From: an uncultured Clostridia bacterium | GTDB taxonomy: Bacteria; Bacillota; Clostridia; Lachnospirales; Lachnospiraceae | Assembly: GCA_946624325.1 (NCBI GenBank) | Contig: CAMOSC010000005.1 | Location: 1-38,903, forward strand | Length of the DNA stretch: 38,903 nt | Reading direction: 5' to 3' | Part shown: piece after piece, positions 11,460 through 36,053 of the stretch | Layout of the letters: each line of letters opens with the position of its first letter | Position numbering within the stretch: position 1 is the first letter of the stretch | The notes under the pieces: model-generated | Seen by the model: only the letters and a program-made list of their open reading frames with translations | Databases searched by the model: none | Told to the model about the DNA's origin: nothing | Translations under genes and position numbers: made by a program

Positions 11460-11645
11460 GCCGGAAAGCGGGGAGGTGCAGGCCTGTCTCGGAAAGCATG
11501 TGGTACAGGCCTGTCTCGGAAAGCGGGGAGGCGTAGGCCTGTCTCGGAAAGCATGTGGTACAGGCCTGTCTCGGAAAGCGGGGAGGTGTAGGCATGTCTC
11601 GGAAAGCGGGCGGTACAGTTCTGTCCCGGAAAGCGGCAGGGTACG
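11460..11645. repeat. Tandem repeat family E, ~27-28-bp unit, about 6-7 copies
   Basis: Units 'TCTCGGAAAGCATGTGGTACAGGCCTG' and 'TCTCGGAAAGCGGGGAGGYGTAGGCCTG' alternate between the MATE stop and the next CDS. Confidence 0.85.
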
Positions 11646-16001: not shown

Positions 16002-19000
16002 ATGGATAAATACGAATATCGCTTAAAGACAGATCATATCAAACAGGTCGCTGCCCGCAAGGATTACAGGGAGGCGGCGAAGCTGTGCGACAGCATAGAC
16101 TGGAGCAAGGTGCGTGATGTCAAGATGCTGACAACGGTATCGGATATTTACACCGCACTCCACCGCTACGAGGACGCCATGAACGTGCTGGTCCAGGCCT
16201 ATGAGTATGCTCCGATCGGAAGACGGATCGTATACCGTCTCACGGAGCTGGCGCTGGCAGCCAATAACTATGATGACGCCAAGGCATATTTTGAGGAGTT
16301 CTGCAATATCGCACCGCATGACCAGGGACGTCTGGTGCTGCTGTACAAGATGGCCTGCTCCCAGAATGCCACCGTGAAAGAGAAAATAACAATCCTCGAA
16401 GCCTACAAGCGAGAGGATTTTGATGAAAAATGGGCCTACGAGCTTGCCACGCTCTATGCCCAGAGCGGACAGACGGAGAAATGTGTCCAGCTGTGCGACG
16501 ACATCGTGCTGTGGTTCGGCCTGGGCGCCTATGTTGAGAGGGCGCTGGAGCTGAAGGAGCGCTTCGCACCGCTGACGGAAGAACAGCGCGCGAAGGCGCA
16601 GGAGCTGAAAAATCAGAAGGAGCAGGCGCAGTATGAGGAGCGCTCCAGACAGATTGATTCCATTAAAGGGGTTCCGGATACCGTGAAGGAGCTGCGCGTG
16701 GATTCCGAGCTGGACCGCGTGGGCAAGGCCACGGCGGAGATGGTCCGCAGCATGGAAAAGGAGAGCGGGCAGGGGCCGAGAACCGATGTGGATGCGAGCG
16801 TCCTGCAGCAGTTTAAGCGCGCGCCTATGGTTACGGTGACCCGTCTGGACGATCCGGATCCGGTGGAGGTGCAGAGAAGCCGTGAAAATGTGAACGGGAA
16901 GTCCCGTCAGTTCAACCGTCTGGTTTCCGCCAGCGTGCCGGAGGCGATGGATGATACCCGCCGGGAGGAGTTTGTCGGAAAGCTTGCCCGCCACAGGCGG
17001 CAGGCGAAAGAGGAATTCAACGCCACGCAGGCAAAGATCCCTCAGGGGCCCGTTTCCGGCGAGGCGGTGGAACAGTTCATGAAAGAGAGCGCCGAGGAAA
17101 ATGCCAAACGGCAGCAGATCCACGCGGATATCGCGCCAACAAGGACCGATCTCGGCGATGGTCTCGGCGCCACAAGGACGGATGTCTGGGATGAAAAAGA
17201 GGCGCAGCGGAAGGCTGCCATGATCGCCGGCGCCCGCACTGCCGACTACGGGGAGGAGTTTGCCGAGGCGATAGAGATTGCCGTTTCCCGGGCGGAAGAA
17301 GATGCCGGAAAGCAGAAGGCGGATGCCCCGGAGCAGGAAGCGCGGGAGATTTCTGCGGAGGCGCGGGAAGCGCATCGGGATGAACCCCAGGCTCCGGATA
17401 TGGAAGGCGGACCGCAGTATGTGGATGCCGTGGAGCCGGATGCGGAGAATTTTGTAACCTTTGATGGCCTTGGCGAGGTTCCGGAACAGGTATCCATGGA
17501 GTCCGCCGGAATCGCTGACGAGATCCCCGAGGAGGATATCCGCGATATACCCACCGCGGAAATTTTCGTGGAGGCGGAAGGCAGCATGGAAGAGGAGAAC
17601 GATACGGAAGATTCCGGAACCGGGCGGGAGAAGGAGCTGGAAGAGCCGGTCGAGGGCGTGGAGGGCGTATATGTTGCCCGCCAGGCCGGCGAGGAGTTCC
17701 CGCGGATGGCAGAAAACAGCCGTCGGATAGCCGATGAGGAGGCTTATGCGGAAGTCCCGGAAAACGGGGATGACATTGCCGACTCAGAGGCTGAATACGA
17801 TGATGAGTCGGAATACGATGACGAGGCGGATCGCTTTGATGAGGACTCCGACAAAGCAGAAGGTTATGCCGGCGATGCGGAAGAAGATTACGAGGCTTAC
17901 AATGACGGGAAAGCCGGAAAAGCAGACAGCGTGTCTGCGGCCAATGCTGAAGCCGAGGGGGACGATGACATGGCTGGCGAGGCTTCTGTAGAGGATATGA
18001 TGGACCAGGAGTATCAGGATTATATCCGGGAAGGCGGTTATAGACAGGCCGAAGAGGACGAATCAGCGGGCGGGGATGACGATGATCCCGAGGCTGAAGC
18101 GTACGGATACGAGGACGAGGCCGAACCCGAACCCGAAGGGGATGAATCCGAGTATGAGTATGACGATGAGTCTGAAGATGAAGAGTCCGAGTATGATGAG
18201 GACGATGAGCCTGAGGATGAAGAGTCCGGATATGAATACGAAGACGAGTCTGAGGAAGACGAGTCCGAATATGAGTACGAGGACGAGCCCGAGGAGGACG
18301 AATCCGAGTATGCTGAGGACGATGAGCCTGAGGAAGAAGAGTCCAGATACGAATACGAGGATGAGCCCGAGGAGGACGAATCCGAGTATGCGGAGGACGA
18401 CGAGCCTGAGGATAGTGAGTCCGGATATGAATACGAAGACGAGTCCGAAGAGGATGAATCTGAGTATGCGGAGGACGACGAGCCTGAGGATACTGAGTCC
18501 GGATACGAATACGAGGATGAGCCCGAGGAGGACGAATCTGAGTATACGGAGGATGACGAGCCTGAGGATGATGAGTCGGAATACGAGGACGAGTCCGAAG
18601 AGAATGAATCTGAGTACGCGGAGGATGACGAGCCTGAGGATGATGAGTCGGAATACGAGGACGAGTCCGAAGAGAATGAATCTGAGTATACGGAGGATGA
18701 AGAGCCTGAGGCTGACGAGTCCGGATACGAATCCGAGGATGAGTCCGAGGAGGACGGATCTGAGTATGCGGAGGATGAAGAGCCTGAGGATGATGAATCC
18801 GGATACGAGGATGAGCCTGAAAAGGGCAGATCCGGCAAGGGTGACAGTTCTTACGGAGACCGCAGGAAGAAGGAAACAGCGCGCAGGGTAAAGAAAGAGC
18901 TGGAAGGGATCGGAAAGAGCACATCCGGCATACTTCCCACAGGAGTGCTTCGCGTCAATCCCGAGAATCTGGCTTCTACCTGGCATTTCTCTGTCAGTGT

Positions 19001-24623: not shown

Positions 24624-24870
24624 GCCACCGTCCGCCATTCCGGAAGAAATAGGCGGCGCGTAGAAGAAAAATGTCCGCCATTCCGGAAGAAATGAACGAT
24701 GCGTAAAAGAAAAATGTCCGTCCTTCCGGGAAAAATGAGCAGTACGCAAAAGAAAGATATACGCCATTCCGGAAGCAATAAGCGGTGCCGAAAAGGAAAG
24801 CTGTCCTGTTTCCGTAAGAAAGAAATAAGCGGCACATAAAAGAAAAATATCCTGTTTCCCGAAAGGGAAA
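24624..24870. repeat. Tandem repeat family F, 43-46-bp unit, about 5 degenerate copies
   Basis: 'TGTCCGCCATTCCGGAAGAAATgarCGrTGCGTAAAAGAAAAA' repeated with drift up to the HAD gene RBS. Confidence 0.85.
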
Positions 24871-31973: not shown

Positions 31974-33233
31974 TTACAAGCTGTCAGGGTTCTCGATGCG
32001 GAAGGGCTTCAGATCGCGGTCGGTCACCGTGATCTGCATATCGGCCGCGCGGCGCAGATCTGTCTGGGACATGCCTTTGGCGGCCACGAGTATCATTTTT
32101 GCGTACTTCCCGCCAAATCTGCGGGTTACCGCGGACAGCTCGTAGAGCGCGTTTTTGCCGGGACGGCCAAGCTTGCAGGAGATGAAGGTGGGAACAAAGC
32201 CTTTCAGGGAAATCACGTCAATTTCGTTGAGTACATCCTCACCGGAGCGGCGGTGGATTACCCCGTCCCAGTCCAGGTGGACGCCGACCTTGCTGTTTGG
32301 CGCTTCTCTGCGGAGCAGCTGGTAAATATGGAGCTCCAGGATGCTTCCGGCCTCGGTGAGGCAGTTGAGAACGGTTTTGTTTGCACAGGTAAAAGTCAGC
32401 GTGCCTTTTCGGATTCTCAGGTTGCAAAAGAGTCTGAGTTCCTCGCCGTCCTTCAGAAAGGCGCGGAGGGCATCCTCCGTGAAGATGCGCTGCTTTTTCA
32501 GGGAATCGCGGATGAGCCCGGCTTCCAGGCGTATGGTCAGCGTACTGTCGGCCGGCGCCTTCTGAAGCAATCCGGACATGGCGGGCCAGCCCTCCTCATA
32601 CCGGGTAAAAAGCTGCCAGATGCGGTTGATCAGGCTTTCGGTCTCCCGGTTGTCGATACCCTTGATTTCCTTATGCATGCGGTAATTGATCACGCCTCCG
32701 CGCATACGGATCCACTTGTCCAGGTCCAGGTGCGCAGTTATCTTTTCTGCAATTTCGGGAAGTACGCCCGACAGCGGTTTGTTGAGCAGGATCAGCTGAT
32801 CCGATTCAACCCGGTAGAGGTGGAGCGGAAGGGAGAGTTCCTGCGCGAGCATACCGAAAGAGAGGGAGACAAGGGTATCACAGCCGGTTAAATCCGCAAA
32901 TACTTGATTCCCTGCGGAACATTCGGAAACCGCCGTCTCCCGGATGATCTCCAGAAGGGCGGGCAGCAGCTCCGGCTGACCGGATGGGTCCGGCTGACCT
33001 GCAGACCGTGTGTCCGGCCGGGCCGCGTTGCGGGAAGGGGCGGAAAGGGGCAGCTCATAAAAGCAGGTTTCCGTTACACCGCAGACATCCCTGAGAAAGC
33101 GTCCGGTATCCTGCCGCATGACGGCAAGATCCTCCCGGCTGCCGAAGAAAATCATTTTATCGATATGAAAATGCAGGGCGCTGATCAGATTTTCAACGTG
33201 TTCTCTGCTGAGATATTTCATCAGGACGATCAT
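31974..33233 (-). CDS. Card1/DUF1887-like protein: CARF-like N-terminal domain plus PD-(D/E)XK-type nuclease domain
   Basis: 419 aa; C-term 'GSILELHIYQLLRREAPNSKVGVHLDWDGVIHRRSGEDVLNEIDVISLKGFVPTFISCKLGRPGKNALYELSAVTRRFGGKYAKMILVA' matches DUF1887/Card1; N-term 'VFADLTGCDTLVSLSFGMLAQELSLPLHLYRVE' at the CARF motif position. Confidence 0.8.
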   Translation of the reverse strand: MIVLMKYLSREHVENLISALHFHIDKMIFFGSREDLAVMRQDTGRFLRDVCGVTETCFYELPLSAPSRNAARPDTRSAGQPDPSGQPELLPALLEIIRETAVSECSAGNQVFADLTGCDTLVSLSFGMLAQELSLPLHLYRVESDQLILLNKPLSGVLPEIAEKITAHLDLDKWIRMRGGVINYRMHKEIKGIDNRETESLINRIWQLFTRYEEGWPAMSGLLQKAPADSTLTIRLEAGLIRDSLKKQRIFTEDALRAFLKDGEELRLFCNLRIRKGTLTFTCANKTVLNCLTEAGSILELHIYQLLRREAPNSKVGVHLDWDGVIHRRSGEDVLNEIDVISLKGFVPTFISCKLGRPGKNALYELSAVTRRFGGKYAKMILVAAKGMSQTDLRRAADMQITVTDRDLKPFRIENPDSL

Positions 33234-33272
33234 GGCGAAGCTCCTTTTGGCTGTTTGGGTATGCTGCCCGGA

Positions 33273-34898
33273 TCACATCCGGAACGGAAAGACCGGCAGC
33301 CCGGCGGCGTTTTTGACGTTTACTTCGTAATAAGGCGTGCAGGCGAAGGCCACATGCTCCGGCCTGACCGCTTTGCCGTCCGCGGATAGGCTTATGCGTA
33401 AGGTTTCATCGCGGATTTCGGCATGGATGGTGCCTTCGGGTGATACGGAGAGCAGGGAGAGCAGGTTTTCCTCAGGGGAGAGCTGCTCCGGAACATCGGG
33501 ATCGGAGAAGGAAGCGGCTTTTGCCTCCTCCGGGGTCAGGCCGCCGTTTTCGGGTGATGTCAGTGAAAGCCCGCGTGAATTCTTAAAAGAGATCACGGCA
33601 GTATCGCCGTCGTACGTCATCCGCTCTGCCCGCGGGGCATCACACAGAATATCCTGCCCGTACACATGTCCCAGGGCCAGCAGTCCCAGACGTTCTCCGG
33701 GTTTGCGCTTATGCTTGGGATGAATATCATTGTACATGCCCGCATCGCCAATGGATGCCATCCAGGTATCGTGCACTTCGTCGGCGGTGCGTTCCTGGGC
33801 AGCCCGGATTGCCGGGAAATTGTCGGCTTCATTCCCGAGCCACCGGTAGAACGGCGCAAGCTGTACGGTGAGGAAGAGAAGGGTCGGGTCCTCAAAGTCC
33901 GAGCGCCATTTCTGAATGAGCGCGTTCATGAGCGCGGTGTAGAGCTCCGGATGCGCTTCATCGCTGCATCCCTGGTACCAGAGGAAACCGCGGAGCGTGT
34001 AGGGCATGAGGTTTTTCAGCATGGTGTGATAAAGACCCGCCGGTCTCCAGGGATGTGTGGGCAGAATGGGCGGCATTTCGCCCTGCGGGAACATTTTTGC
34101 GGCTTCCTCCTGCTTCTTCCAGGATAAGCCGGGGTAGAGAATCTCATCGAAGGGCGTGGGATTTGCGGGATCCGAGAGCACGTTCTGCGGACCCTTCTTG
34201 GAGGCTTCAACGGCAGCATCCAGATCCGGTACGGATTTCAGCGCTTCTTTATATTCCGTGATCCAGACCTCTGCGCCTGCTTCACGGATGGTCTCCTCGG
34301 GAATCCAGCAGCAGGCCTTCGTGCCGCCCCAGTTGCAGCCGATCACGGCTATGGGGGAGGAAATCCCTTCCCGGAGTTTTCTCTCAAAGTAGTAGCTGAC
34401 AGCGGAGAAATAAACGATATTTTTTTCATCCAGACAGCGCCATTTTCCGAAGTTTGACAGATTTACGGCCTTTTCCATACCTTCCCAGGCAATTTCGGGA
34501 TAATCAAAGAAACGGATAGAGCGGAGGTCTTCCGGGGAGAGCCCGGCAAGCCCGGCCCGTTCCCTGTTCAGCTCCGCATCCGAATTCATGAGATATTCCA
34601 TGTTGGACTGACCGCCCGCAAGCCATACCTCACCGACTGCCACATCGATGATGCGTGCGCTGCTTTCCCCGTCCGTAACCGTCAGGATTTTGTCCAGCCC
34701 GGCTGCCAGAGGCGGAAGAACAGCCTGAAAATATCCGTCCTCAGCTGCGGTTGTACTGCATTCGGCTTCCGTTTTCCCGTCAAGATCCGCAAGGCAGACG
34801 TGTATGGCGGCAGAAGCAGCCGCCGTACCGAAAATCCGCACGGGCTTTCCCTGCTGGAGCATCATGTGATCGCTGAATACAAGCGGTAACTGAATCAT
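33273..34898 (-). CDS. Sialate O-acetylesterase-like (SASA domain) protein
   Basis: 'PLVFSDHMMLQQGKPVRIFGTA...VAVGEVWLAGGQSNMEYLM...GFLWYQGCSDEAHPELYTALMNALIQKWRSDF'. Confidence 0.9.
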   Translation of the reverse strand: MIQLPLVFSDHMMLQQGKPVRIFGTAAASAAIHVCLADLDGKTEAECSTTAAEDGYFQAVLPPLAAGLDKILTVTDGESSARIIDVAVGEVWLAGGQSNMEYLMNSDAELNRERAGLAGLSPEDLRSIRFFDYPEIAWEGMEKAVNLSNFGKWRCLDEKNIVYFSAVSYYFERKLREGISSPIAVIGCNWGGTKACCWIPEETIREAGAEVWITEYKEALKSVPDLDAAVEASKKGPQNVLSDPANPTPFDEILYPGLSWKKQEEAAKMFPQGEMPPILPTHPWRPAGLYHTMLKNLMPYTLRGFLWYQGCSDEAHPELYTALMNALIQKWRSDFEDPTLLFLTVQLAPFYRWLGNEADNFPAIRAAQERTADEVHDTWMASIGDAGMYNDIHPKHKRKPGERLGLLALGHVYGQDILCDAPRAERMTYDGDTAVISFKNSRGLSLTSPENGGLTPEEAKAASFSDPDVPEQLSPEENLLSLLSVSPEGTIHAEIRDETLRISLSADGKAVRPEHVAFACTPYYEVNVKNAAGLPVFPFRM

Positions 34899-34922: not shown

Positions 34923-36053
34923 TCAGGTGACATCGTGAGACGGTTTTGAAGGTCTGAAAATACGAATCAGGCCGATAAACAGGAAAAATGCGGCGGTACC
35001 TCCGTAGAAATACAGATACAGCGGATCCCGTATATTCATATTGAAATAAAACAGCCACAGAAGGGCAGCGGATACAGCCGCGAAGAAAAAGCAGCGGAAC
35101 CGTTTTCTGCGAAGGAAAATGCAGACCAGTCCGGTCAGCGCGAGAATCATCCAGACAACCGCAGGCAGCAGGGACAGCGGCAGCGGGATACGCTCAAGAA
35201 GCTGTTCGCTGAAAGTGCGCAGTGAAGAAAGGACCGTCTGTAACACATTTTCGGGTTTTGTACGTCCTTTATCTCCGGTCTGGCCGGAATGATTCCCGGT
35301 CTCCGCCTCAAATGAACGGTCTATGCCCGCTATATTTCCGGGATTTTCCTCCGGTTTGTGATCCGGATCCTCGCCGGAATACTCCACTACCATATCCGTC
35401 GCTGCGTCTGCCTCGGAAGATTCTTCCACTGCATCGGTTACGATCCGGACATTTACCTGCCTGTACGGAATCGTTCCTTCCGCTTTCACGGAGGGCTCTT
35501 TCGTGCCGTCTTCTTCAGTGTCGGATTCCGGAATTGATTCGGAAAAAGGCGCTTCGGATTCAAGGGCGCTTTCGGCCTCCGACGGGAAATCGGTAGTTTC
35601 GGGAATCTCTTCTTCGGAAGAACTTTCCCGGACAGGCCCGGCACCCGCTTCAACTGAGTATGTCTCGGTCTCCGCTTCTGCGGAGAATGTTTCGCTTTCG
35701 ACAGGGGTCTCGGTCTCTGTTTCCGCGGCAAAGGCTTCGCTTTCGAAACCGGTGCCGGTTTCCGTTTCTGTGACAAAGGCTTCGCTTTCGAAATAGATTT
35801 CGGTCTCTGTTTCCGGGGCGAATGCTTCGGTTTCGACAGCGGTCTCCGCTCCGAGCGTGCCGATCGGCGTTTTATTACCCGGGTTTCTCAGGGACGCAAG
35901 CAGAATTCCGACCCCAACTAACAGGGCGGACGCCGCGGCGAGCAGCCATCCACCGGTATGCCTGCCGGAAGCAGCCGGTTTGTCAGATGAAGAGGCGGAC
36001 GTCCGCCGCTTGTTTGGATCCTCCGGTTTGGATGGGAAAGGTAAGGAGCTCAT
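34923..36053 (-). CDS. Membrane protein with acidic Glu/Thr/Ser repeat region
   Basis: 376 aa; TM 'GGWLLAAASALLVGVGILLASL', 15-aa repeats, C-terminal TM pairs 'LPLSLLPAVVWMILALTGLVCIFL' and 'CFFFAAVSAALLWLFYF'. Confidence 0.65.
   Translation of the reverse strand: MSSLPFPSKPEDPNKRRTSASSSDKPAASGRHTGGWLLAAASALLVGVGILLASLRNPGNKTPIGTLGAETAVETEAFAPETETEIYFESEAFVTETETGTGFESEAFAAETETETPVESETFSAEAETETYSVEAGAGPVRESSSEEEIPETTDFPSEAESALESEAPFSESIPESDTEEDGTKEPSVKAEGTIPYRQVNVRIVTDAVEESSEADAATDMVVEYSGEDPDHKPEENPGNIAGIDRSFEAETGNHSGQTGDKGRTKPENVLQTVLSSLRTFSEQLLERIPLPLSLLPAVVWMILALTGLVCIFLRRKRFRCFFFAAVSAALLWLFYFNMNIRDPLYLYFYGGTAAFFLFIGLIRIFRPSKPSHDVT

Follow-up and report, generated by a model that had tools for sequence, protein, structure and literature searches.

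The window analysed here is a stretch of 38,903 nucleotides from the genome of an uncultured gut bacterium of the Lachnospiraceae, and the gene of interest within it is an ATG-initiated open reading frame whose product carries a CARF domain followed by a PD-(D/E)xK nuclease domain (Table 1). CARF domains are sensors in type III CRISPR signalling. The gene lies between a gene for an MsrA-Nudix protein, with which it is convergent, and a gene for a SASA-type esterase, as a previous reading made from the sequence alone had described. Co-transcription of the esterase and CARF nuclease genes is possible, and their pairing is not conserved beside relatives of the nuclease gene. A further protein of the window (34923-36053) has a repetitive Glu/Thr-rich stretch and hydrophobic ends and gave no Pfam match.

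Table 1. Features of the CARF nuclease gene, its product and the adjoining esterase gene, in window coordinates.
Feature	Position	Strand	Basis
CARF - PD-(D/E)xK protein, DUF1887/Can2/Card1 family, 419 aa	31974..33233	-	Open reading frame, Pfam, PADLOC, PDB profile, model and fold search
Ribosome-binding-like AAAAGGAG, 7-8 bases 5' of the CARF nuclease ATG	33241..33248	-	Sequence read
CARF domain (Rossmann-like), N-terminal, about residues 1-155	32769..33233	-	Model (strands alternate with helices); CARF part of Can2/VC1899 (profile); CARF of Cam1 (fold search)
PD-(D/E)xK nuclease domain, C-terminal, about residues 290-405	32019..32366	-	PF09002, residues 295-404
DLTGCDTL (residues 114-121), CARF ligand motif	32871..32894	-	Alignment counts
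NEID (residues 336-339), Glu337 and Asp339 corresponding to SthCan2 Glu276/Asp278	32217..32228	-	Invariant (99/99)
SCK (residues 352-354), Ser for the ExK Glu, Lys354 retained	32172..32180	-	Alignment of 99
Glu365, helix following the SCK strand; putative relocated catalytic acid	32139..32141	-	Alignment; helix 360-373 in model
SASA-type esterase, 39 bases upstream of the CARF nuclease gene	33273..34898	-	Open reading frame list, neighbour reading

First, the protein had been taken for a Card1/DUF1887-like CARF nuclease, and this proved right, because Pfam, PADLOC, PDB profile and AlphaFold/Foldseek results agree. The Card1-like endonuclease domain (PF09002) scored 31.0 bits against a curated cut-off of 26.4, and the CARF4-CARF_PDDEXK models of PADLOC matched with E=9.4e-23. 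Searched with a profile built from the protein plus 16 relatives, the PDB gave Can2 (E=5.5e-23), VC1899 and Card1, with both domains covered. The AlphaFold model (mean pLDDT 91.9, pTM 0.89), in which residues 62-90 or so of the CARF domain form a low-confidence insert, had VC1899 as its best Foldseek match (E=4e-23) and Cdn1 as its second, with Can2 and Card1 also among the nearest solved structures. Thus profile, model and fold search all gave a CARF domain followed by a PD-(D/E)xK domain in a single chain, and the protein is a member of the PF09002 family despite lacking the glutamate of the ExK motif. By its sequence, this absence also means that it is not identical in kind to the characterised Can2/Card1 type.

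Can2 (Sulfobacillus, PDB 7BDV) and Card1 (Treponema succinifaciens, PDB 6WXX) have the same domain order, a full-length profile match and Glu/Asp/Lys catalytic residues, whereas the window protein has no type III locus, has lost the equivalent of Can2 Lys99, and has Ser for the ExK Glu together with a Glu in the next helix. Cdn1 (Psychrobacter, PDB 8Z4I and 9U49), a Can2 relative of the CARF4 clade, shares the fold; it is type III-B linked, is activated by cA4 and cA6 (PMC12825302) and, unlike the window protein, uses the ExK Glu as a metal ligand. The best fold match is VC1899 (Vibrio cholerae, PDB 1XMX), also an orphan DUF1887 protein with CARF and PD-(D/E)xK domains and no type III system, which has ECK with a helix Lys where the window protein has SCK with a helix Glu, and Asn and Arg in place of Asp114 and Thr120. 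VC1899, the only orphan tested, lacks conserved cA4-site residues, is a weak RNase that is not regulated by cA4, and was called possibly degenerate (PMC7969007). Some genes of its family are likewise unlinked to CRISPR (PMC4012209). Stand-alone DUF1887 proteins were already known from VC1899; the broad clade described below and its active site appear to be new.

The motifs quoted earlier, DLTGCDT (114-120), NEID (336-339) and FISCK (350-354), are present letter for letter. In the nuclease domain, the catalytic Glu-x-Asp and Lys are supplied by Glu337, Asp339 and Lys354, the last being conserved in 98 of 99 aligned proteins, and the E276A/D278A change of the acidic pair inactivated SthCan2 (PMC7969007). 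The ExK Glu, which is found in the characterised Can2, Card1 and Cdn1 and is not constant in PF09002, is Ser352 here. This replacement had been presented as a peculiarity of the orphan, but Ser occupies the position in 95 of the 99 proteins, including type III-linked members, and Glu in only 4. At residue 365, 93 of the 95 Ser-type proteins have Glu, and the four Glu-type ones (SthCan2, Card1, VC1899 and L128) all have Lys. These counts represent consistency rather than independent repeats, since one swap or a few on the tree account for them; Fisher values for this swap and for the CARF lysine loss described below are inflated by kinship, with few evolutionary events in each case. In the two Ser-type proteins with a helix Lys (L025 and L048), a Glu precedes that position by three residues within the helix, and 10-14 residues separate the Lys from the helix Glu in 91 of 93 proteins. 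Since Ser352 is fixed throughout the branch and comes together with Glu365, we do not take it to mean that the enzyme is inactive or out of the ordinary.

A working variant of this kind is known from CCGG-family restriction enzymes (NgoMIV, Cfr10I, Bse634I and BsaWI), whose motif PDX21-53KX12-13E places the second acid on the helix that follows the Lys strand; for BsaWI an acid about one turn earlier was proposed, which mutation supports (PMC4652773). These enzymes are unrelated, sequence-specific and without a CARF domain, and the likeness is one of active-site layout only. By sequence and analogy, the metal site of Ser-type DUF1887 proteins has probably been relocated and still works. Four type III-linked PF09002 proteins of Bacillota (L123, L126, L132 and L138), which differ from the window protein in adjoining RAMP genes, in keeping Asn at position 114 and, mostly, in having the CARF Lys, show the same SCK and helix Glu, so this form of active site predates or is independent of the orphan state.

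Second, the CARF ligand motif had been described as unusual on account of DLTGCDT. Its Cys does differ from the common form, but it occurs in only 2 of 83 stand-alone proteins, and we rejected it as the key change because it is nearly private to the window protein and minor. The contacts with cA4 that SthCan2 shares with Can1 are Ser19, Thr42, Lys99 and Tyr118 (PMC7969007); we gave Ser19, Thr42 and Tyr118 no weight, since they are poorly conserved even in type III-linked members. At the Lys99 equivalent the window protein has Thr120 and so lacks the cA4-contacting lysine; of the 83 stand-alone proteins a single one has Lys or Arg there, whereas 8 of the 9 type III-linked proteins outside the clade have Lys. 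Likewise, Asp114 stands where type III-linked proteins have Asn (9/9 outside the clade), Asp or Glu being present in 80 of the 83 stand-alone proteins. Judged from the alignment, these two changes, common to the clade, are the informative ones. Glu or Asp also often appears at positions 119-120 alongside Asp114, which would give the clade an acidic pocket. A possible use of other ligands was noted for CARF families in which no positive residue follows strand 4 (PMC4012209), and the earlier suggestion that the protein responds to another signal seems likely from the Lys99-equivalent loss, Asp114 and the stand-alone state.

Third, we analysed the genomic setting. The gene had been called an orphan, which agrees with our results: no CRISPR-like array or cas gene was found in the window, so that the gene is neither in nor near a type III locus there, and the host genome (2.99 Mb in 277 contigs, 84.8% complete) had no match over cut-off for RAMP proteins, the Cas10 palm domain, mCpol or the SMODS cyclase. 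SMODS (PF18144) also had no match in 55 other carrier genomes; on this model, none of them showed a CBASS cyclase. We therefore set aside mCpol and SMODS as signal sources. Repeats were recorded at three places in the window. At 24630-24842 a 43-nt unit recurs in tandem about four times, with a degeneracy and spacing that do not suit a CRISPR array; at 11462-11636 a direct repeat of about 65 nt occurs three times, spaced by 55 nt; and a long run of 39-nt repeats (18117-18800) could encode an Asp/Glu-rich stretch.

Clustering of neighbours revealed no conserved operon partner, any one family adjoining the gene in at most 5 of the 80 loci, and the nearest relatives of the window gene share no adjoining gene with it. 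Some neighbours are possibly hidden, since at least 5 kb on each side of the gene was available for about half of the species-collection loci (30/59). In 6 of the 80 loci (e.g. L039:1298-2089, L052:7817-8536 and L046) a cysteine-rich protein with a CxxCxxCC motif (YkgJ-like) is encoded close by, a weak association. A defence island was considered and rejected: among the matches listed for 112 neighbouring proteins in PADLOC (25 of 54 families), most belonged to broad families (E1-E2, mad3), with single matches to the BrxHI helicase and others, and isolated defence matches may be hidden given that share of families. Plasmid, phage or viral-contig copies of the gene were not found, the viral scan reaching close relatives only.

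Fourth, the distribution of the gene is patchy. A protein search found it in 12 of 98 relatives and showed it to be missing from one of two congeners, and Pfam detected PF09002 in 17 of 299 genomes of the same family; thus it is not a core gene of the lineage, which would have spoken against the sequence-only reading. RAMP proteins occurred in 39 of these 299 genomes and in none of the 17 PF09002 carriers (Fisher p=0.14), and among species-collection carriers RAMP genes were present in 2 of 50, on contigs other than that of the nuclease gene. These carriers are certainly not enriched for type III systems. Outside the family, in the phylum sample, RAMP genes were present in 13 of 18 PF09002 carriers, within about 6 kb of the PF09002 gene in 12 of those. 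Type III genes lay on other contigs in three carrier genomes. In G002, a congener of the window bacterium, RAMP and Cas10 genes are located on a different contig.

A scan of a species collection (one genome per species; profile from five closer rows) yielded 67 loci; almost all belong to Lachnospiraceae or to unnamed relatives of animal-gut origin. In a tree of 90 proteins, 79 fell into a single Bacillota clade (SH-aLRT 89), mostly Lachnospiraceae and including the window protein, which sits in a five-member group with a support of 100. The impression of a single curiosity is thus mistaken: the protein belongs to a large stand-alone clade in which 78 of the 79 members have no known type III neighbour. 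The tree has long, variable branches, and dN/dS was 0.05-0.21 in the eight pairs for which it could be computed; the genes are under purifying selection. The scattered occurrence of the gene suggests that it encodes an effector in defence or stress which lineages acquire by transfer and lose again. In one member (L033:970-2637 and L043, genome G129) the reading frame extends into a nucleoside-deaminase-like domain (556 aa), which the closely related L042, of 401 aa, lacks. A second stand-alone PF09002 group was observed outside the family (L121, L122, L124, L127 and L131), with LSNG for LTGG in four; no RAMP genes were found in these genomes. Our literature search, which did not take in the main 2020 CARF classification (Makarova 2020), found no paper on the Lachnospiraceae clade; its sequences may have been grouped before, given that the PADLOC models already match them and that this classification lay outside the search.

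One protein nested in the clade, L135 (G702), is encoded by the leading gene of what looks like a complete type III-B operon (L141:3584-13887) with genes for CorA, Cmr1, Cas10 (GGED-type), Cmr3, Cmr4, Cmr6 and Cas6; the exact place of L135 in the tree is unsure because its branch is long. Its CARF domain has the acidic form at residue 114 and has lost the Lys99 equivalent. CorA relatives are activated by SAM-AMP (PMC12255297, PMC10600005), and, by eye, the Cas10 of this locus appears to have an Asp in the region of the conserved Asp of SAM-AMP synthases. Given this operon, it is possible that a clade member signals via CRISPR. The proteins might then be cA4- or cA6-responsive effectors acting in trans with type III systems that some strains possess or acquire transiently, as the type III genes on another contig of G002 would also allow. 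However, the whole clade, L135 included, has lost the Lys99 equivalent and carries an acid at position 114, and the lack of RAMP enrichment among family carriers differs from the 13 of 18 carriers outside it. We consider this explanation unlikely.

A constitutive housekeeping RNase or DNA-repair nuclease, in which the CARF domain merely dimerises, seems to us about equally improbable. Such a role would fit a chromosomal gene amid metabolic genes that has neither a conserved partner nor plasmid or phage copies, but a more even distribution would be expected of it, and the particular pattern of conservation in the CARF motif speaks for a ligand. That the protein is a relic detached from CRISPR that has ceased to be a regulated nuclease, the proposal made for VC1899, is the least probable of these explanations: the weak, unregulated RNase activity of VC1899 (PMC7969007), the lost cA4-contacting residue and the long, variable branches agree with it, but a relic would not retain its catalytic residues in dozens of species, and these are invariant across the clade, with the low dN/dS noted above.

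On balance, we think it probable, without being sure, that the protein is a functional, stand-alone, ligand-gated and metal-dependent nuclease whose signal is not cA4 and is not supplied by a type III CRISPR system in its host. A different signal is likely because the gene stands alone, the lysine is missing and the catalytic acid has moved to the neighbouring helix. This reading starts from the fold, the domain order, the conservation of Glu337, Asp339, Lys354 and Glu365, the absent lysine, the stand-alone state and purifying selection; for the dimer, gating, substrate and role we propose the following. The protein would be a homodimer in which a pocket between the two CARF domains binds a small molecule other than cA4; much as in Can2, this ligand would switch the paired PD-(D/E)xK domains to their active state. 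The nuclease would then cut RNA and/or nick DNA by means of a divalent metal coordinated by Glu337, Asp339 and the relocated Glu365, with Lys354 as the catalytic lysine.

More speculatively, the Bacillota clade may have left CRISPR and switched to a non-oligoadenylate signal from a yet unrecognised enzyme. A SAM-AMP-like or other cationic nucleotide is a candidate ligand, because the pocket is acidic and L135 lies in a CorA-containing type III-B locus, a type known for SAM-AMP signalling; we offer this as a tentative idea. The L135 locus is the best natural lead and test case for the ligand question.

If the Glu has been relocated as proposed, searches for the ExK motif would label active members of the family as dead. 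The clade also provides dozens of orthologues for ligand finding, some of them in named isolates (Butyrivibrio sp. CB08, Lachnospira pectinoschiza M83 and Oribacterium sinus DSM 17245). If it is indeed selected, stand-alone and changed in its pocket, CARF-gated nucleases would act in signalling routes unrelated to CRISPR.
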